IMG/VR virus record: IMGVR_UViG_3300029907_000045
Coordinates: 1 to 21,375 of that record
Reading direction: 5' to 3' (one strand)
DNA: 21,375 nt
DNA from: a virus
Both the position numbers and the translations under genes were made by a program. The notes beneath the pieces are model-generated. The model was not told the origin of the DNA. It saw only the letters and a list, made by a program, of their open reading frames with translations, and made no database searches. Below, one piece after another: positions 7,837 through 21,375 of this stretch (the first letter of the stretch is position 1; each line of letters opens with the position of its first letter).

Positions 7837-8369
7837 TAACTTGCTACCTGATTGTACTTAAGCCATTCGCTAGACACAGAACTAACGCCACCAAGAATAG
7901 ATGACGCAGCCCCAATCTCACCAGCAGACATAGCATTGGCTCCGGCCTGGGAATATAATTGAGCCTGCGCCCCGGCAACAGTGGCTTGTTCAGTGTAGCC
8001 ATAGGCCGTTCTAGCTGCGTTAGATCTGATCACATCGGTATCGAGCTGATTTAGGTGTCGTTGGCTGTCTTGGACTTGTTTATTAGACCCTGAGTTTACA
8101 TCAAATCCGCTGGAGGCCTGGGAAACCTTGATCTGGCCCATTTGTGTAGCTTGTTTGAGCCCAGCCTGCTGAGCCTGTTGCTCACCTTGCTGAGTGGCAA
8201 ATGTAGCATTCTGCAGATCAATTTGTTGATTAAGATTTGCTATACCAGACTGATAGTTGTACATTGACTGATTAGCACTACCAGACGATAGCGAGCCGAA
8301 TGCGGACAGCAGCGATCCGGCACCGGTAGCGCCTTCAGTGACGCCAGCGATTGCACTAGGACTACTCAT
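7836..8369 (-). CDS. internal virion protein, gp14-like
   Basis: This 177-aa protein has the usual features of T7 gp14-type ejection proteins: a Gly/Ala/Ser-rich hydrophobic N-terminus (residues 1-34, able to insert in a membrane), a central Gln-rich helix (about 42-85, with repeated QQ and QAQQAG), and a second Ala/Ser/Gly-rich stretch (about 130-165). In T7, gp14 enters the outer membrane on ejection and starts the channel completed by gp15 and gp16. It lies between the gp13-like and gp15-like genes, as in T7. A GAGGT Shine-Dalgarno sequence precedes ATG 8369, and the start overlaps the end of the upstream gene by 8 bases. Confidence 0.85.
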   Translation of the reverse strand: MSSPSAIAGVTEGATGAGSLLSAFGSLSSGSANQSMYNYQSGIANLNQQIDLQNATFATQQGEQQAQQAGLKQATQMGQIKVSQASSGFDVNSGSNKQVQDSQRHLNQLDTDVIRSNAARTAYGYTEQATVAGAQAQLYSQAGANAMSAGEIGAASSILGGVSSVSSEWLKYNQVAS

Positions 8370-8766
8370 GTTGTACCTCGATGGTGAATTTAATTAGACC
8401 CAGTTCGACTGGACCGAACTGTGCGCCAAGCGATTTCAACCAAGCCATGCTACTGGGATGGCCCGTGCAATGGCCAAAGAGTTCGGGGTATCGATAATGA
8501 AATGCCGGTACCCAGCGCCGGGCCAATCGAGCCACCGCCAATCGATGATTGCTGGTGGCTTCGGTGGTGTGGACCCAAACGTAGGCTGAATCGGATAGGG
8601 TTGAGGTTGGGACAAACCCAATAAACCCAAGCAGTTCATCGCCAAGTCTAGCCTCAAGTAACGGATCGGCCAACCTTGAGGCCGCGATCAAAGCAGCTGC
8701 ACCAGTCCAGCCCTGGACCAAGCTTTGCAATCTAACTAAACTAATCGCCTCCATCCGCGCGTTCAT
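8362..8766 (-). CDS. gp13-like protein with GNAT (DUF2833) fold
   Basis: This 134-aa protein looks like the T7 gp13 (internal virion protein A) family, which has a GNAT acetyltransferase-like fold and is needed for correct internal core assembly. Seen in the sequence: a short strand pair ELLGFIGFVP at about 45-55, a beta strand before SDSAYVWVHTTEA, the helix NHRLAVARLARRWVP, and the GNAT-type end pattern CTGHPSSMAWLKSLGAQF in which a helix is followed by 'LKSLGAxF'. It is the first gene of the ejection cassette, right after the gp12-like tail protein; the ATG overlaps the upstream TGA as ATGA. It ends with TAG at 8362, which overlaps the next start. Whether it is enzymatically active cannot be told. 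Confidence 0.8.
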   Translation of the reverse strand: MNARMEAISLVRLQSLVQGWTGAAALIAASRLADPLLEARLGDELLGFIGFVPTSTLSDSAYVWVHTTEATSNHRLAVARLARRWVPAFHYRYPELFGHCTGHPSSMAWLKSLGAQFGPVELGLIKFTIEVQHE

Positions 8767-11621: not shown

Positions 11622-11624
11622 CTA
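11622..11624 (-). other. TAG stop in frame with the next gene, overlapping its ribosome-binding site
   Basis: The TAG that ends the gp11-like gene is followed in frame by GAA CTG TCC ATG, where the ATG at 11612 starts the gp12-like gene. The last G of TAG forms part of the AGGA Shine-Dalgarno sequence of that start. Reading through this codon would fuse the two tail proteins, so it is good evidence that TAG is normally a stop in this genome. Confidence 0.85.
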
Positions 11625-12722
11625 ACCGAATGTGGGCCACATGCCACCCCAGTCAAACCCAGTGAATGGCCCGCTATAGGGTTCAGCAAAGTCAACCCCG
11701 CGGATTCGTATCCAGTCAGGGGTGATGTCATTAATAGTAAGCCCTTCATTGCCATCAGCTTGGCGTGCTAGCATAATAGTTTGATTAGCTTCCTGCACAG
11801 CGAAGTTAGCGAGCTTCTTATCGCCGGTTAGAGGTATGGTAATGGTTGCCCCAACCAACTTCACGTATGCATCTTGGAATAGATCATCCATTACATTGGG
11901 ATCAACAACATCTTGGCAATACACCAGCGTAGCGTATTCTTGATTGGTTAATATCACTCGCTGCGGGGCCTGAGTGCCGTAAGTTAGATTGAAGGTTGCT
12001 CCGACTCCCGACCCAGAGGTTGATCCTTGCGGCACCGGATTGCTCTGCTGTGCAAAGTACGATCCGCCAATAACCTCCTGCGATCCAGCGGTGTCCCCAG
12101 TATACACCGTATTTACAACGGTGGCAGAGGTAATAACTCCCCCGGCCACCATTGCTACGAGCAACTGAACCGGGGCGCCGATGGGAGGACTGGTCGTTGG
12201 TCCAGCTGGGAGGGTGATGAGATCGCCGACTCCATAACCAGTTCCTCCATTGACAACAGCGGCGGCCGTTACTGGGTAGAAGGTGTCGGTTTGAACTTTG
12301 TATTTGACTGGGGGACCTTGCCAGAAGCTGGACGCTCCCCCAGTAACCGCGGTGGTGATCGGCACACCACCAGCGAATCCGGTTTGGGTTGCTGGGATCA
12401 TCCAACAAGGGCGAACACAGTCGACGGGGTATTGGTATTCATAGGCCCACGGTGGGACGGGCTGTCCGGGCTGCCACAGGGTCGTGGGCGCGGAGGTATT
12501 CTCAGGGGTCCCCGGCGATGAGGTGATGTAGACTAGATTCGCTGCTTTGACTGAACAATTCCACGGTGCCATTCGCAGCAAGCGCCGGCGAATGTTGGTC
12601 ATGCAGAGGTTTAGTTGCAAAGCCTCGTTTGTTAGATTTCCAGCAAGTTCAGCGTCAGTTACGGACGTGCGTGTGCCGGGGACCTGTAGTGCGCGATTCG
12701 CAATGTCCGTGAGGGTGGTCAT
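11622..12722 (-). CDS. tail tubular (adaptor) protein A, gp11-like
   Basis: This 366-aa protein has the gp11-like adaptor signature: the N-terminal helix TDIANRALQVPG, a helical pair with NEALQLNLCMTNIRRRLLRMAPWNCS (residues about 32-57, the usual R-x-x-LL-x-x-x-PWN), then the YEYQYPVDC patch near 94-102, and a C-terminal helix with KKLANFAVQEANQTIMLARQADGNEG. Such proteins form the ring that joins the portal to the tail nozzle. T7 gp11 is about 196 aa; the surplus is an inserted Gly/Thr-rich beta module at about 153-250 with NGGTGYGVGD, matching modules in the next gene. It ends in TAG in the same frame as the following gene, three codons before that gene's ATG. The Shine-Dalgarno sequence is weak (AGGGA, 12 bases upstream). 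Confidence 0.87.
   Translation of the reverse strand: MTTLTDIANRALQVPGTRTSVTDAELAGNLTNEALQLNLCMTNIRRRLLRMAPWNCSVKAANLVYITSSPGTPENTSAPTTLWQPGQPVPPWAYEYQYPVDCVRPCWMIPATQTGFAGGVPITTAVTGGASSFWQGPPVKYKVQTDTFYPVTAAAVVNGGTGYGVGDLITLPAGPTTSPPIGAPVQLLVAMVAGGVITSATVVNTVYTGDTAGSQEVIGGSYFAQQSNPVPQGSTSGSGVGATFNLTYGTQAPQRVILTNQEYATLVYCQDVVDPNVMDDLFQDAYVKLVGATITIPLTGDKKLANFAVQEANQTIMLARQADGNEGLTINDITPDWIRIRGVDFAEPYSGPFTGFDWGGMWPTFG
11973..12266 (-). repeat. inserted Gly/Thr-rich beta module in gp11-like protein
   Basis: Residues about 153-250 of the gp11-like protein interrupt the normal adaptor fold. NGGTGYGVGDLITLPAG is followed by QLLVAMVAGGVITSATVV, a strand-turn-strand pattern also found in the gp12-like protein (GAGTGFVIGDTVNFGNG then LTVLTISGGTITSWAI). 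Confidence 0.65.
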
Positions 12723-13517: not shown

Positions 13518-13724
13518 CTAGTGTTTTCCTTGACTGCCTCGGGGGTGGTTCTGGCGATTGGCTACCGGGGCTTCATAGCCACGGCCATCGTAGAGTTTGA
13601 CAGATTTGGTTCGTACCTGATGCGCACCAAGGTCGGACACAGCGGCTAGGCTGACCGATTTGGACTTTGGCGCAACAGCCTTGGCCCCATCGACAATGTG
13701 TTGATTCGCGGTTCCCTGTTTCAT
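13518..13724 (-). CDS. 68-aa small basic protein ending in G(S/T)QGKH
   Basis: A 68-aa basic, polar protein of no family I recognise. It contains KAVAPKSKSVSLAAVSDLGA and RTKSVKLYDGRGYEAP, and ends NHPRGSQGKH, closely matching the end of the 61-aa protein at 12726-12911. ATG 13724 has GGAGA six bases upstream and starts just after the preceding TGA. It ends with TAG; the bases after that stop form the Shine-Dalgarno sequence of the next gene. The shared tail suggests that the two small proteins are distant paralogues or bind the same partner. Confidence 0.75.
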   Translation of the reverse strand: MKQGTANQHIVDGAKAVAPKSKSVSLAAVSDLGAHQVRTKSVKLYDGRGYEAPVANRQNHPRGSQGKH

Positions 13725-14090: not shown

Positions 14091-14243
14091 TTATTTACCT
14101 TTCTTCTTGAGTTTGATCATGCCTTTGCCTTTGTCGGCTATGTTGAATTCCTTACCGACCTTTTCGGACACACCACCGAAGCCGCCTTTGGTGTGGGCGG
14201 CCGCGGCCATGAGGCGGGCTTGGGATGGGGATTTACTTGGCAT
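14091..14243 (-). CDS. 50-aa Lys-rich small phage protein (MPSKS type)
   Basis: The chosen start is ATG 14243, giving MPSKSPSQARLMAAAAH followed by KVGKEFNIADKGKG and a Lys-rich end. This MPSKSxxQxxLM...AAAH...KV-K-F-ADKG pattern recurs in small proteins of many proteobacterial phages, function unknown; the match favours this start over an upstream in-frame ATG at 14273. The gene overlaps the end of the preceding gene by 11 bases in another frame. It is strongly basic at the C-terminus (KLKKKGK), so nucleic-acid contact is possible but not shown. Confidence 0.8.
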   Translation of the reverse strand: MPSKSPSQARLMAAAAHTKGGFGGVSEKVGKEFNIADKGKGMIKLKKKGK

Positions 14244-14457
14244 CAGGTTTGTCCTTTGGTTTAATGGCATCAAGTTGTTTTTGCAAATCAGCGTTAATCA
14301 GCTCCTTCTTAGCGACCTCCGCCGAGAGTCCCACGACACGGCCGTTCGCCTCGCTGAGCAACTGTGCGTAGGTTACGGCAATGGGGTCAGTCGCCATTTG
14401 CTGTGCAAATGCAGGGCTGGCAACCAACGCAGTCAGAATCACAATTCGCTTCATCAT
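14233..14457 (-). CDS. 74-aa secreted or periplasmic coiled-coil protein
   Basis: The N-terminus is a textbook Sec signal peptide: MMKR, hydrophobic IVILTALVASPAFA, predicted cleavage after Ala18 before QQ. The mature part (about 56 aa) is a helix with coiled-coil character (YAQLLSEANGRVVGLSAEVA, KKELINADLQKQLDA) and a charged tail KPKDKPDAK. There is no lipobox Cys, so it is not a typical outer-membrane spanin. The ATG overlaps the upstream TGA (ATGATGA) and a GGAGAGG Shine-Dalgarno sequence lies upstream. Function is unknown; it directly follows the secreted fibre-like protein and may act with it. Confidence 0.8.
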   Translation of the reverse strand: MMKRIVILTALVASPAFAQQMATDPIAVTYAQLLSEANGRVVGLSAEVAKKELINADLQKQLDAIKPKDKPDAK

Positions 14458-16196
14458 ACGGCCCTCTCCATATTGACGAGATTATCGCTGGCTGGGATAT
14501 CAAGCATCCCATAGAGCCAACTCGTTCCGTTGCAAAACACGGGGGCGATCACCGCTCCCGTCGTCGAAACCGTTCCGAGGAACGTCGGCGTCGTCTGTCC
14601 ATTAGTGATGTAGGCCCGCGCACCTCTCGTTCCCGCTGCACACGAAGGCAGGGATGCAATGGCATAACCGGCCGTCGCAACCACGCCTCCAAAGTAACCA
14701 GACCCCGCGACACCGAGGCCGCCATTATCAATGATGCCGCCCGTCGTCGTGCTGATTGAAGCCACCGTTGACCCGAATGTGGCCGCACCATTAGAGCGGA
14801 GGATTAGTAACCAATCGCCAATAAATGACCCAGCGTCGCTGAAGGCATTTAGCTGATAATCAGAACCCGCGTTGCCACCGCTTTCCGCAGTGCCGTTACC
14901 AAGTAAAAAGTCCCATCTATTGTTGCCAGCCATAGTTGAGACGAATGCAGCAGATTGCGTCGATGCTGCCATATTAAGATTGATTTCCGGCGAGGTACTG
15001 GTAACATTGATCATACCATTAAGCGTCAATGTACCAGCGCCAGTCAGCGTGACGTGCGGGAAGTTGAGAATGTCGCCTGTCACAGTGACGTTTGCCAAGT
15101 TCAACACATTGGCTATCGTCGCCGTGCTTTCCGAGTATACTATGTCAGCAGACGGATCGAGGGCATGAAACAAAGTCCCGCCTTCGGTAGTCAAAGAGAT
15201 AAGATGTTTCCAGCACCCGGTGCTCGCGCCACCACACTGAACTGAGATTGCCGTGTCGAGCGTTCCTGCTTGATAGATGCCGTAATCGTCAATATTCAAC
15301 CCATAACGGCGCGGAACAGCGCTTGTTGTTGCGTTGTTCTGGGACATTCCAATCTCAAAACCGATCATATCTGGGGCTGATCCGGCCGCTCCGACTGTGA
15401 CGGCAGCCGTAGTGCCGTATAGTCGGCTTAATCCGGTATACTCTTGATCAACACCAGAAGAGATTGCGTCAAGGTCGCTCGTCGTCGTCGTCGCGGCGCT
15501 AGTGACGATGCCGACCGATAGTGTGAAGGCTTCCGTACCAGAATACCCTGCTCCAATTGTCAGCGTCTTTTGCTCCATCGCGAGGATTGGGGTTATCCCC
15601 GTCACGGCCGCACCGAACGTGGCAAATGTTTGATTCAGATAAACAGGAGTTGCATAAGACCCTGCGGTTGGGCCAGTTTGTGAGATTGCGAGACCTTGCG
15701 TAGTTGAATTAGTTGGCGGCCCAATCATCAATTCCGCAGTAGGTGACGTAGCCCCCGGTCCAATGCCTACATTGCCGGCAATGGGATTGAGAAGAAGGTT
15801 TCCGGCGCTCACCCCGCCGCCCGTATAAGCTTGAATTTCTGCGTAGGTATTGCCAGTCGACGCTCCCATAAGAATGTTGAGAAAACTACCGACACTCCCA
15901 GGTACAAAATCGGTCGTTATTGGACGCAGCAAATTACTAGACTCAATAACACCTGTTTGAGTAAATCCAGGGCCTCCATTATAAAGCAGCGTCGCCGGAG
16001 CACCGGGGAACGTCATGGCGTTGCCGCCAATATTCAGCGGATTTGGGAGGCTATTAATGGTATTTTGATTTACAAACGCCGTGCTGGCGCAGGCGTTGGA
16101 GTTGTCGCCAACCGGACGGGTGGGGCAGGTCTGTGCGGCGGCCGGTGTGGCGAGGAGCAATGCACCAAGGATGAAGAGTTTCTTGAGATCACACAT
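14454..16196 (-). CDS. tail-fibre-like protein with N-terminal signal peptide
   Basis: A 580-aa Gly/Ser/Thr/Ala-rich, beta-rich protein. Residues 1-21 form a Sec signal peptide (LKKLFILGALLLATPAAA, cleavage predicted before QTCP). The mature start, CPTRPVGDNSNACASTAFV, resembles the 'GDNSxxxATTxFV' motif found in phage tail fibres. Later, GNVGIGPGATSPTAELMIG is like the 'VGIGTxSPxAxLxV' repeat of fibre shafts, and the C-terminus (LPSCAAGTRGARAYITNG, then PVFCNGTSWLYG) resembles the end domain of many fibre-like proteins. The mature chain has six Cys (24, 36, a CGGASTGC pair, and two near the C-terminus), which would suit disulfides in the periplasm. The start overlaps the previous gene by 8 bases with no strong Shine-Dalgarno sequence. 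Host attachment is likely by type; export is unexpected for a virion part. Confidence 0.8.
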   Translation of the reverse strand: MCDLKKLFILGALLLATPAAAQTCPTRPVGDNSNACASTAFVNQNTINSLPNPLNIGGNAMTFPGAPATLLYNGGPGFTQTGVIESSNLLRPITTDFVPGSVGSFLNILMGASTGNTYAEIQAYTGGGVSAGNLLLNPIAGNVGIGPGATSPTAELMIGPPTNSTTQGLAISQTGPTAGSYATPVYLNQTFATFGAAVTGITPILAMEQKTLTIGAGYSGTEAFTLSVGIVTSAATTTTSDLDAISSGVDQEYTGLSRLYGTTAAVTVGAAGSAPDMIGFEIGMSQNNATTSAVPRRYGLNIDDYGIYQAGTLDTAISVQCGGASTGCWKHLISLTTEGGTLFHALDPSADIVYSESTATIANVLNLANVTVTGDILNFPHVTLTGAGTLTLNGMINVTSTSPEINLNMAASTQSAAFVSTMAGNNRWDFLLGNGTAESGGNAGSDYQLNAFSDAGSFIGDWLLILRSNGAATFGSTVASISTTTGGIIDNGGLGVAGSGYFGGVVATAGYAIASLPSCAAGTRGARAYITNGQTTPTFLGTVSTTGAVIAPVFCNGTSWLYGMLDIPASDNLVNMERAV

Positions 16197-16563
16197 GGCT
16201 GTCAGTCACCGTTAGAGGGTTGCCAGTCGCGGATGCAGCGAAGGCCTGCCATTGGCCTTGGCATTCGCCGGTGAAGGTACGTGTGCCACCGTTGGCGTAG
16301 ATGCGATAGCAGCCACCGAGGGCCGAGGTGGTTGGAGTCAAGGTGGAATTGGTGATTGAAGTGGGGATCGAGTTATTCGCTTGCACCAAACTCGGTGCCA
16401 CAAAGACATCCACCGTACCCGGATTGTCGAAGGTGATCTGTGTACGGTATTGATCGGCAGGGGCCACCACCTGCGGGGAGGTGGTTAGATTGTTGAATGC
16501 ATAAACCTTTCCGCCTGAGGTGGGGCCGATTGGAGATGCACTGAAACCAGAGGTGGTGGCCAT
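16189..16563 (-). CDS. 124-aa beta-rich protein, probable virion accessory
   Basis: The chain is Thr/Ser/Asn/Gly-rich with short beta strands (KVYAFNNLTTSPQVV, YRTQITFDNPGTVDVFVAP, GGCYRIYANGGTRTFTGEC). Its two Cys flank a predicted hairpin. No signal peptide is present. I know of no assigned function; similar small beta-sandwich-like proteins occur beside fibres and decoration proteins in phage structural clusters. The ATG at 16563 follows the upstream TAA by three bases, and the TGA overlaps the start of the fibre-like gene, so co-production with the fibre-like protein is likely. Confidence 0.75.
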   Translation of the reverse strand: MATTSGFSASPIGPTSGGKVYAFNNLTTSPQVVAPADQYRTQITFDNPGTVDVFVAPSLVQANNSIPTSITNSTLTPTTSALGGCYRIYANGGTRTFTGECQGQWQAFAASATGNPLTVTDSHV

Positions 16564-17074: not shown

Positions 17075-17713
17075 TTATTCCTCCGTCCAGGTGATTTGAC
17101 CGTTGAGAGATGCGGTGGTAGATACAGCACCAAAGTTGACGCAGAGTTGCTGGGTGGAACCCTTGACTAAGGTCGGCACCTGTATATTGTTTTCAATATC
17201 TCGGCTCCAGTCGAAGACGGTCATGGGAGTGGGGGCACCAACCGTAGTGGCGACCACGCCTAACATAGCAGAGTCAACATAGACAGGCGACGAGTCGTTG
17301 ATGGTGGGGACCGCAGTGTAGGAAACCAACGCTGCTGTAGCGGAGGCATTGGTGGCGAGGCCGGTGTCACGAGAAGCGATCTGTGTGGTGATGCCAGGGT
17401 TGGCGGTGGTGGTGCCGATGGTACCACCAGTGTCAAGCGAGACTCGGCGGACGACTTGAATCGGTAGAGAAACAGCCGTGCCAGAACCACCAATTACAAA
17501 GCGGTCAACACGAACCGTCTTGGTTGAGGAGGCTGCAATACAGAGAACGTCAGTGGCCGAAGCAGGTGGGACAAGACCGAAGAACGAAGATGAATAAGTG
17601 ACCTTGGGCAGGTAGCCGGTAGTAAGGCCAACCTGTTGAACAGTATTGACCTGGGCGAATGCTGGGGCAGCGAGCCCCAGCATCAGCGCCGAAGTGAGAA
17701 GAAGTTTCTTCAT
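17075..17713 (-). CDS. 212-aa structural-type protein with Sec signal peptide
   Basis: The start is ATG 17713, with AAGGAG about 10 bases upstream; a longer in-frame reading back to 17920 lies inside the cement-protein gene and is rejected. Residues 1-20 are a classical signal peptide (MKKLLLTSALMLGLAAPAFA, cleavage before Q21). The mature part is beta-rich: DVLCIAASSTKTVRVDRFVI, PIQVVRRVSLDTGG, and a C-terminal block VLxKGSTQQLCVNFGA...GQITWTEE. That 'KGTxQQLxVNxxG...xxxWTEE' ending is familiar from phage virion proteins encoded next to the capsid or fibre genes, usually without a signal peptide. There are two Cys in the mature chain. Either a decoration protein or an exported accessory; the family function is not established. 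Confidence 0.8.
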   Translation of the reverse strand: MKKLLLTSALMLGLAAPAFAQVNTVQQVGLTTGYLPKVTYSSSFFGLVPPASATDVLCIAASSTKTVRVDRFVIGGSGTAVSLPIQVVRRVSLDTGGTIGTTTANPGITTQIASRDTGLATNASATAALVSYTAVPTINDSSPVYVDSAMLGVVATTVGAPTPMTVFDWSRDIENNIQVPTLVKGSTQQLCVNFGAVSTTASLNGQITWTEE

Positions 17714-17726
17714 GGCGCTGGGCTCC

Positions 17727-18308
17727 TTAGTTGGCGACAGTGATACCGGCTTGGTAGCCGGAGAGGTATGGACCCTGTGAGCCAACCTGGTCGAAGCGGT
17801 CGATGACGAGGGCGCCATTGACGAGGCCGGCAGTGTTGGCTGAGCCCACGACCACGTAACCGAGACGTAGATAGCGGGGCATAGCTTGACCGGTGGCTGG
17901 ACGAGGCACGTCGCAGTCAAGGAGTCGAGCGCCGACCACTAGATTGGCAAGAGCAATGACTGGACCGGAGACCATGGTAGTCCAGTCGGTGGCGTAGGGG
18001 GCGCCGCTGCCGTTGTCGTGGGTACCCTGCAGGATGATCTGGATGCTGGTGAGGGTGTTGAAGGCGACGGTGACGTCGACCAGAACCTTGAGGGCAGGGT
18101 CGTCGCCCACACCGATGTCGCGTGCGCCACCACCAGCACCGGTTGCGTTGGTGCCTGAGGAGGCGGGGAGACCGGCCATGCCAAGGTCAAGGACGTTGGC
18201 CGAGTAGGTCGTGCCGGAGGTGGGAAGGTCGGTGTAGGTGCCGAAACCCACGCCGCCGGTTGAGCCGTTAGAAGTGCCGGTGAAGAGAAGCAGTCCGTCG
18301 ATGATCAT
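17727..18308 (-). CDS. Bbp16-like capsid cement (decoration) protein
   Basis: This 193-aa protein follows the capsid gene and matches the look of the Bbp16 family, the cement protein that stabilises the BPP-1 capsid: N-terminus MIIDGLLLFTGTSNG, then a short Gly-rich loop, a Leu/Val strand with LVDVTVAFNTLTSIQIILQG, the phrase PRYLRLGYVVVG, and a C-terminus ending in DRFDQVGSQGPYLSGYQAGI. TAAGGAG before ATG 18308 is a strong Shine-Dalgarno sequence and overlaps the capsid gene's stop. It ends in TAA, a few bases before the next gene's Shine-Dalgarno sequence. Confidence 0.87.
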   Translation of the reverse strand: MIIDGLLLFTGTSNGSTGGVGFGTYTDLPTSGTTYSANVLDLGMAGLPASSGTNATGAGGGARDIGVGDDPALKVLVDVTVAFNTLTSIQIILQGTHDNGSGAPYATDWTTMVSGPVIALANLVVGARLLDCDVPRPATGQAMPRYLRLGYVVVGSANTAGLVNGALVIDRFDQVGSQGPYLSGYQAGITVAN

Positions 18309-18320
18309 TGTGGGTTCTCC

Positions 18321-19370
18321 TTAAACCACTTGAGCTTCGTTATTGAGGATGGCGTCCACCGTGCGGACGACTTGGCCGCGGAACGTAGTTACCACCTTAC
18401 CATCAAATTCCTCCAACCTCAACAGCACATTAGTTTTGTTCATTGCCTGTAGGTCCAAATAGGTCCGGACCACTCGGTTGCAATAGATAGCAACCCGGCC
18501 CATGTTGGCGCGGACCTCAGGAGTGTCGGAGGTCTGGATCGAGGTGGCAGCGGCTGGGGCGGTGGGCAGGCGCTAGAGGCCGCGGACTAGGAGGTTGATC
18601 AGGTTCGCCGCCGAGACACCGGTTAGTTGGGTCACATCGATGTTGGCGATGCGGACGACGTAGCGCCAGTCGCGGAGAACCAGGCCGATTTCCCATTTGA
18701 AGTGATCGCGATAGGCTTGATAGGTGTTGCCCGAGGCGTCTGAGACCGGCCATTCACCCATGTCGCGGTGCTGGAGACCGGTGATCTTGCCCTTGGGGAA
18801 GGTGCCGTGGAGAGTGTCGTTGCCCCACGTGGCGATCCAGATCGAGGTGTTGGTGGAAGAGGTGCCACCGCCATCGAGAACGTTATTGGCGGTTTGGGAG
18901 TTGGAAGTGTTCTTCGTGCTGTATCGAGGAGCAAAACCAGTAAAGCGTTCAGGGTTCACACCCTGGTTGCCGTAGATCAGGGTCGAGGCAACCTGTTGGG
19001 ACATACCTTCGAGGAAAGCCTTAACCTCAGAGAGTCGAAACTCCGGGGTATTGCCATTGAGATCGGCAATGTCCTTGTCGATAACCGCATAGGTCTCGAG
19101 GTTGCCGCAGGTATCGACAATCTGCGCCGTGGTCGACTTGGCATTCGGGACGCCGGTGTTGAGCAAGCGCCACGTGCCCTGAATAAGGCCGGTGCGGACG
19201 GTGGTCTTATGACCGGTAGGGAGGTTGCCTTCCATGACGAGCATATCGTCAAGGATTTCGTTGGTCTGAGAGAGGAGTTCGATGATGGAGGCGACGCGGT
19301 AGCCGTCGTCCATGCGTTTGGCCCAATCACCGTACGTGAGAGCGGTTGAGCCGATATTTAGGGTAGCCAT
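18321..19370 (-). CDS. major capsid protein, reading frame interrupted by an in-frame TAG
   Basis: One open frame of 349 codons holds the major capsid protein, except that codon 266 is TAG (18573-18575). Codons 1-265 start MATLNIGSTALTYGDWAKRM and include ELLSQTNEILDDMLVMEGNL, YAVIDKDIADLNG and YGNQGVNPERFTGFAPRYS, the HK97-fold capsid type of BPP-1-like podoviruses. Codons 267-349 go on in the same frame (RLPTAPAAATS, VRANMGRVAIYCNRVVRTYL, FDGKVVTTFRGQVVRTVDA, ILNNEAQVV, TAA) and carry the C-terminal core of the fold, so the 265-aa product alone should be incomplete. AAAGGA precedes ATG 19370. Explanations are a real nonsense mutation, suppression or readthrough, or a sequence error. An ATG at 18503 could start the C-terminal part alone but has only a weak, distant GAGG. 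The gene follows the scaffold gene and precedes the cement gene. Confidence 0.87.
18573..18575 (-). other. in-frame amber codon inside the major capsid gene
   Basis: The codons read GGC CTC TAG CGC CTG CCC (G L stop R L P). The frame on both sides of it is the same, and the downstream 83 codons encode recognisable capsid sequence, so no frameshift is needed. At least three other genes here (8362, 11622, 13518) end at TAG. One-base changes from Tyr, Gln, Trp, Glu, Lys, Ser or Leu codons would create this TAG. Confidence 0.9.
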
Positions 19371-19477: not shown

Positions 19478-20164
19478 TTACTGGTCGGTTCTAGCCAGCG
19501 ACGGATACATGGCCTGCGCAAGGGTTGGCCGGTGAGTTTGACCACTGGCAACTTGACCATGGGGGCTCGGGCTGCCACCAGTGACAGGTTTGCCCTCGAT
19601 GACTCGCTGTGATAGTTTCCAAAAGGCCTTGACGAAGGCTGGATTGTCACCAGCACCGGTTAGGTCCATAGCTGTTTTGAAATCTTGAATGAGCTTGGCG
19701 TCGTTTAGAGTATCTAGGGCGCGGCCAACATCAGCCTTGATGGATTCAAGCTTACCGCCCATTTCGGGATCGGACCGAACCTCGGTGACCCACTTCTCGC
19801 GCATGGCTAGGACAGCCTTGGCGCCGGTGTCAGCGACCGCTTTCATTTGCTGGTTGTAAAAGTCGACAAGTTTGTCGGCAGCAGCTTGTGAGAGACCAAG
19901 TTCTCGGAAGATGGGAGTGGCGGCGGCGATGACGGTGTCATCAAGCGCTGCACCCTGCGGGGGCTTGAAGTCGTATTTGTCTGGGGCGCCGCCGGTGGGT
20001 TGAGTGGTTGTGTCATTGGGTTGGCTCAGGTTCGTAGAGGTTGAACTCGGGTTCGGCTCCGTCTGGGTCTGGGTCACCGGCGGCGCTGCGTCCTTCAAGG
20101 TCCCGTCTGGAGTTCTGGCCGCTTCGGTATTCGCTGCGGGCGGCTGCGTGATTGAGTCGTTCAT
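19478..20164 (-). CDS. capsid scaffold protein
   Basis: This 228-aa protein sits between the portal region and the capsid gene, the usual scaffold position. The first 60 residues are low-complexity Pro/Thr/Gln/Asn-rich, then APDKYDFKPPQGAALDD leads into a helical region (TPIFRELGLSQAAADKLVDF, NQQMKAVADTGAKAVLAMRE, LESIKADVGRALDTLND), and the C-terminus is Pro/Ser/Gly-rich ending LAQAMYPSLARTDQ. 'P-x-KYDFKxPxG...FxELGLSQxxAxKLVDFY' is the pattern of podovirus scaffold proteins, which fill the procapsid and leave on maturation. ATG 20164 has AAGGAAG 5-6 bases upstream, which supports this start even though it overlaps the preceding gene by 152 bases. Confidence 0.88.
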   Translation of the reverse strand: MNDSITQPPAANTEAARTPDGTLKDAAPPVTQTQTEPNPSSTSTNLSQPNDTTTQPTGGAPDKYDFKPPQGAALDDTVIAAATPIFRELGLSQAAADKLVDFYNQQMKAVADTGAKAVLAMREKWVTEVRSDPEMGGKLESIKADVGRALDTLNDAKLIQDFKTAMDLTGAGDNPAFVKAFWKLSQRVIEGKPVTGGSPSPHGQVASGQTHRPTLAQAMYPSLARTDQ

Positions 20165-20686: not shown

Positions 20687-20769
20687 TAGTCTGGATCCCA
20701 GTTGGTTATTATGAGACCGATGGCGATTAGAATGGCAATGACGATGCAACTAGAGACTAGGTCTGTCAT
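20686..20769 (-). CDS. 27-aa single-helix membrane microprotein
   Basis: A very short ORF fits exactly between the portal gene and the 79-aa gene: its ATG (20769) overlaps the portal TGA as ATGA and its TAA overlaps the next ATG as TAATG. It reads MTDLVSS, then the hydrophobic core CIVIAILIAIGLIIT, then NWDPD, so a single membrane-spanning helix with an acidic end is predicted. The exact coupling at both ends and the clear hydrophobic pattern favour a real gene, and it also explains the spacing. Function is unknown. Confidence 0.7.
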   Translation of the reverse strand: MTDLVSSCIVIAILIAIGLIITNWDPD

Positions 20770-21375
20770 TGTCCTTGGCCTCCGCCTTGACCCAGCATGG
20801 CCTGGAGGGCGTTCTGGCCACCACCAACGTCGGTGCCAGAGAGGTTCTTGGCACCTTGAGAGAGTTGCTGAGCGATCTGGGCTTGTTGGGCTTGTTGCTG
20901 TTGCTGAGCACGTTGTTGGCGGATCTGCGCGAGTTCCTCGGGGCTGCGGATGATCTTCGGACTATTATTGAGTAGGCTAGAGTATTGATCAATGGCTTCG
21001 TCGGTGTCGATGTTATCCATGACTTCAGGCTTTACTCCAACCAAGCCGCCGGTCAACTGGAGTAGCCTCTCGATGCCAGCAGCTGCTGTGGCCTTCTGGG
21101 CTTGGGCGAGCATCGAGACGAACTCGATGTTTAGCATATGGCCCTGGATTTCTGGTGGAGGTGGGGGAAGGATTCCGGCTCGGTTAGCGATAGCGAAGAC
21201 TCGTTCGACGATGGGTTTAAGGACCTCGTCATCGATTCGTTCGAGAACAGGACCGAGCATAACGAGGGATTCCGACTTACGGAGGTCCCACTCGACTGCG
21301 GTAACATTGCTGCGAGTTTCATATTGGCTGGCAACTCGGAGGATGTCATTGAAGAAAACCTGACTCAATCGCTGC
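20766..21375 (-). CDS. portal (head-to-tail connecting) protein, C-terminal part
   Basis: The frame is open to the window edge, so only about the last 200 residues are seen; the first visible codons are Q R L S Q V F F N D, and the TTG at 21368 is an internal Leu, not a start. The sequence FAIANRAGILPPPPPEIQG then LNIEFVSMLAQAQKA and GIERLLQLTG is the hallmark of the C-terminal region of the PF12236 head-tail connector (portal) family of podoviruses. The end is a Gln-rich low-complexity segment (RQQRAQQQQQAQQAQIAQQ) and a Gly/Gln tail. The dodecameric portal is the DNA entry and exit gate. It ends in TGA overlapping the next ATG. Confidence 0.9.
   Translation of the reverse strand, partial: QRLSQVFFNDILRVASQYETRSNVTAVEWDLRKSESLVMLGPVLERIDDEVLKPIVERVFAIANRAGILPPPPPEIQGHMLNIEFVSMLAQAQKATAAAGIERLLQLTGGLVGVKPEVMDNIDTDEAIDQYSSLLNNSPKIIRSPEELAQIRQQRAQQQQQAQQAQIAQQLSQGAKNLSGTDVGGGQNALQAMLGQGGGQGQ

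Follow-up and report, generated by a model that had tools for sequence, protein, structure and literature searches.

The TAG that interrupts the major capsid protein gene of this viral contig is most likely a private, non-functional lesion of one base in an otherwise ordinary capsid gene, judging from comparison with related sequences. The window, by which we mean the whole stretch of DNA analysed, is a virus record of 21,375 bases, and it is evidently a genome fragment, because the portal gene runs past the window end. The capsid gene and the genes of known family that bear on its interpretation are as follows.

11622..12722, minus strand: tail protein gene ending with TAG (phrog_394); homologues of 361-362 amino acids stop at the same place
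17727..18308, minus strand: capsid cement protein gene (Bbp16-like), intact (PF21190, E 6.7e-10); full-length homologue in sibling L113
18321..19370, minus strand: major capsid protein gene (Bbp17 / epsilon15 gp7 family, PF20911), broken at codon 266
18573..18575, minus strand: the in-frame TAG, private to the window contig; its third codon base (18573) is unlike that of every relative
19478..20164, minus strand: PHROG 'protease' gene (probably prohead protease or scaffold), intact, upstream of the capsid gene (phrog_458, E 1.6e-34)
20766..21368, minus strand: head-tail connector (portal) gene, C-terminal part (phrog_332, PF12236); homologue of 581 amino acids in L113

The capsid frame reads on the minus strand from 19370 to 18321 and comprises 349 residue positions followed by a final TAA. 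Its sole internal stop is the TAG at codon 266 (18575-18573, minus strand), beyond which 83 capsid codons remain in the same frame. Translation of the window thus reproduces exactly the gene coordinates, the position of the stop and the number of downstream codons given in a first-pass annotation of this DNA, and the claim made there that the downstream codons encode the C-terminal part of the capsid protein also stands. The part before the TAG matches Pfam family PF20911 (major capsid protein GP7) at profile positions 4-244 (E 4e-107), and the part after the TAG matches the same profile at positions 251-313 (E 6e-18), so that together they account for a full-length family match. Since the two parts match consecutive stretches of one profile, they belong to one capsid gene with one stop. 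The sibling genes are intact, encoding 349 amino acids, and an intact sibling protein matches two solved structures over its full length, Bbp17 of BPP-1 (PDB 3j4u, E 1.6e-91) and gp7 of Salmonella phage epsilon15 (3j40, E 7.7e-81). The window resembles the Bbp17 and gp7 systems also in having a Bbp16-like cement gene after the capsid gene. Compared to Bbp17 and gp7, however, the window copy alone has a TAG, at codon 266 (approximately BPP-1 residue 264), and the TAG is a lesion and not a trait of the family. No internal stop was found in any other window gene that has family or homologue support.

The stop is found in a single contig. Among 80 viral contigs fetched using the N-terminal 265 capsid residues, codon 266 is TAT in 45 and TAC in 35, and in every one of the 80 the capsid frame terminates exactly 83 codons past the codon 266 site. 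Addition of relatives from bacterial genomes brought the total to 110 capsid matches, in which no stop occurs at any position; the 109 matches that cover the codon 266 site have Tyr (86), His (12), Phe (7) or another residue (4). Conservation of the stop, which would be expected for programmed readthrough, was therefore observed in 0 of the 80 viral relatives and 0 of the 109 homologues. Similarly, exact and degenerate DNA scans of the viral collection found no contig with TAG at this site, with the proviso that such scans demand exact matches and may leave out records very near the window.

The first-pass annotation had proposed comparing this codon in close relatives, and the comparison yields a tyrosine codon in all four near-identical siblings (L002-L005). 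These siblings are 99.75-99.86% identical to the window over 5.1-7.8 kb, and their capsid genes differ from that of the window solely in the third base of codon 266; another stretch of the L002 contig is 99.96% identical to the window over 4.8 kb. The 83 codons after the TAG have no changes relative to the siblings, and differ from those of the 92%-identical relative L006 by 26 synonymous and 0 amino-acid changes. This pattern indicates that the region after the TAG was under full capsid constraint, with no decay since the stop arose.

Two explanations for a private stop carry nearly all of the weight, and their relative standing, as we give it here, is a matter of judgement. We consider an error in the consensus base to be the probable cause of the TAG, with appreciable room for doubt. 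If so, a wrong base would have entered the contig consensus during sequencing or assembly, and would not be present in the virus; the genomes behind the contig would encode tyrosine at codon 266, as those of the siblings do, and the phage, a podovirus of the Bbp17/gp7 type, would make an ordinary capsid protein of 349 residues. An error is favoured because a genome without a functional capsid gene should not dominate a lytic population and because no integrase was found: neither a tyrosine nor a serine integrase was detected in 13 relatives, several of which are 44-50 kb in length. Against an error counts the location of the stop: even the closer end of the contig is 2.8 kb away, and coverage is usually better there than at the very edge.

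Sibling L005 has a private in-frame stop of its own, a TAA in the portal gene at about position 308 (equivalent to window position 21272), at a codon that specifies glutamate in the window and the other siblings; this TAA lies about 300 bases from the contig end. When the conserved structural genes of the 80 viral contigs were aligned, it was the one other in-frame stop in approximately 95,000 codons, which indicates that isolated wrong or dead bases are rare but present among these contigs.

The second explanation, to which we assign roughly a one-in-three standing, is a real and recent nonsense mutation. An amber mutant, either dead or open to complementation, would then be among the sampled genomes; it would make no working capsid protein from this copy, and could sit in defective virions, in co-infecting genomes or in a defective prophage. 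The mid-contig position of the stop is in keeping with this idea, as is the lack of any further change in the capsid gene, which fits a mutation of very recent origin. In addition, the window differs from all four siblings at positions 17500 and 16370 as well; these sites mark it as a distinct strain with some real differences, of which the TAG base could be another. However, a capsid-null genome cannot spread alone and should not furnish the majority sequence of a lytic population, and no other supported lesion was found in the window. A decaying prophage is disfavoured on this last ground and made less likely by the lack of an integrase in the 13 relatives. Thus, from the set of options offered in the first-pass annotation, sequence error and defective mutation are supported by comparison with the relatives, while readthrough, a suppressor tRNA and a split capsid are not.

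Taken together, readthrough, suppression and a split capsid are highly improbable. Most of this small weight falls on the idea that the TAG is read by ribosomes or by a suppressor tRNA, yielding full-length capsid protein either alone or beside a short form of 265 residues. The frame after the TAG is indeed intact and capsid-like, and the window is a fragment, such that a tRNA could be encoded elsewhere in the genome; the stop, however, is conserved in no relative. In Qbeta readthrough and the T7 10B frameshift, a conserved signal directs the extension, and most of the working capsid protein is the short form. The window resembles these capsid extensions in that a capsid-related frame stays open beyond the stop, but differs in that its short form would be missing some of the conserved capsid domain and its stop is conserved nowhere.

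The extent of this loss can be placed on the BPP-1 protein. In a study of BPP-1 (PMC3863775), the capsid protein is described as having a beta-element for domain swapping at residues 169-241, followed by an alpha-element, and deletion of the capsid gene is described as resulting in no infectious particles, a point that also favours a consensus error in the window. In the alignment to the BPP-1 protein, which has 331 residues, codon 266 pairs with residue 264 or thereabouts and so falls in the C-terminal alpha-element, most of which a truncated chain would lose. The short form would be without about 67 of the 331 BPP-1-equivalent residues, all of them in the alpha-element.

A general reassignment of TAG is rejected, as the internal TAG is confined to a single gene and other genes use TAG as their stop. 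TAG closes three genes of the window (8362-8766, 11622-12722 and 13518-13724) and also the capsid genes of relatives, for example L009, L013 and L015-L018. The homologues of the window tail gene stop where its TAG stands, which is evidence that TAG acts as a terminator in this phage. Phages that use code 15, in which TAG is read as glutamine, resemble the window in that a structural gene contains TAG in frame; one of these, phAss-1, carries internal TAG codons in 41 ORFs, along with three genes for suppressor tRNAs (PMC10607447). If the window were of this type, we would expect internal TAG codons in many genes and avoidance of TAG as a terminator. Instead, in contrast to phAss-1, the window has an internal TAG once, in one gene among about 20, at a position of tyrosine rather than glutamine, and uses TAG to end genes.

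A suppressor tRNA is likewise rejected on the sequence covered. The window has no tRNA genes, and six relatives of 44-50 kb likewise yielded no tRNA bearing a CUA anticodon. Of these six relatives, four are free of tRNA genes and the other two have only a tRNA-Gln(ttg), which does not read TAG:

L127, 6041-6115: tRNA-Gln(ttg), the sole tRNA of this relative
L131, 6085-6158: tRNA-Gln(ttg), the sole tRNA of this relative

Thus, neither readthrough nor a suppressor tRNA, both raised in the first-pass annotation, gains support from the relatives, the use of TAG as a normal terminator or the tRNA content. A literature search for capsid readthrough with a suppressor tRNA in metagenomes found nothing. 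It is more doubtful still that the amber codon is fixed in this strain only, with a suppressor tRNA supplied by the host or by the half of the genome that was not sampled, such that capsid protein is made only in suppressing hosts. Were the stop both real and suppressed, capsid synthesis would be under an unusual, host-dependent switch; none of our findings points there.

Least probable, and rejected, is a split capsid in which residues 1-265 are joined by a second chain that restarts at codon 290, an internal ATG at 18503. A GAGG precedes this ATG by about 10 bases, but the GAGG belongs to conserved coding sequence. The 109 homologues do not conserve the methionine (72 have M, 10 Q, 8 F, 8 T and the rest other residues), and with such a restart 24 residue positions would be absent from both chains.

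We suggest as a caution that, when a lone stop is found in one metagenomic contig from a well-populated phage group, the siblings be compared before any claim of translational novelty is made.

Differences between the window and its siblings (99.8% identity) are concentrated at 16134-16246, a stretch of about 110 bases in which one gene finishes and a gene of 580 amino acids begins. This cluster may be a short block that has recombined or is variable, or alternatively an assembly junction. Three genes of the structural cluster (14233-14457, 14454-16196 and 17075-17713) start with apparent Sec signal peptides (MMKRIVILTALVASPAFAQ, MCDLKKLFILGALLLATPAAAQ and MKKLLLTSALMLGLAAPAFAQ, respectively), and those of their proteins that were tested have no PHROG match. 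Exported proteins are unexpected among podovirus virion genes. The gene of 580 amino acids (14454-16196) is one that has no PHROG match, and a search of long relatives gave no homologue of it; it possibly encodes a strain-specific receptor-binding or accessory protein.
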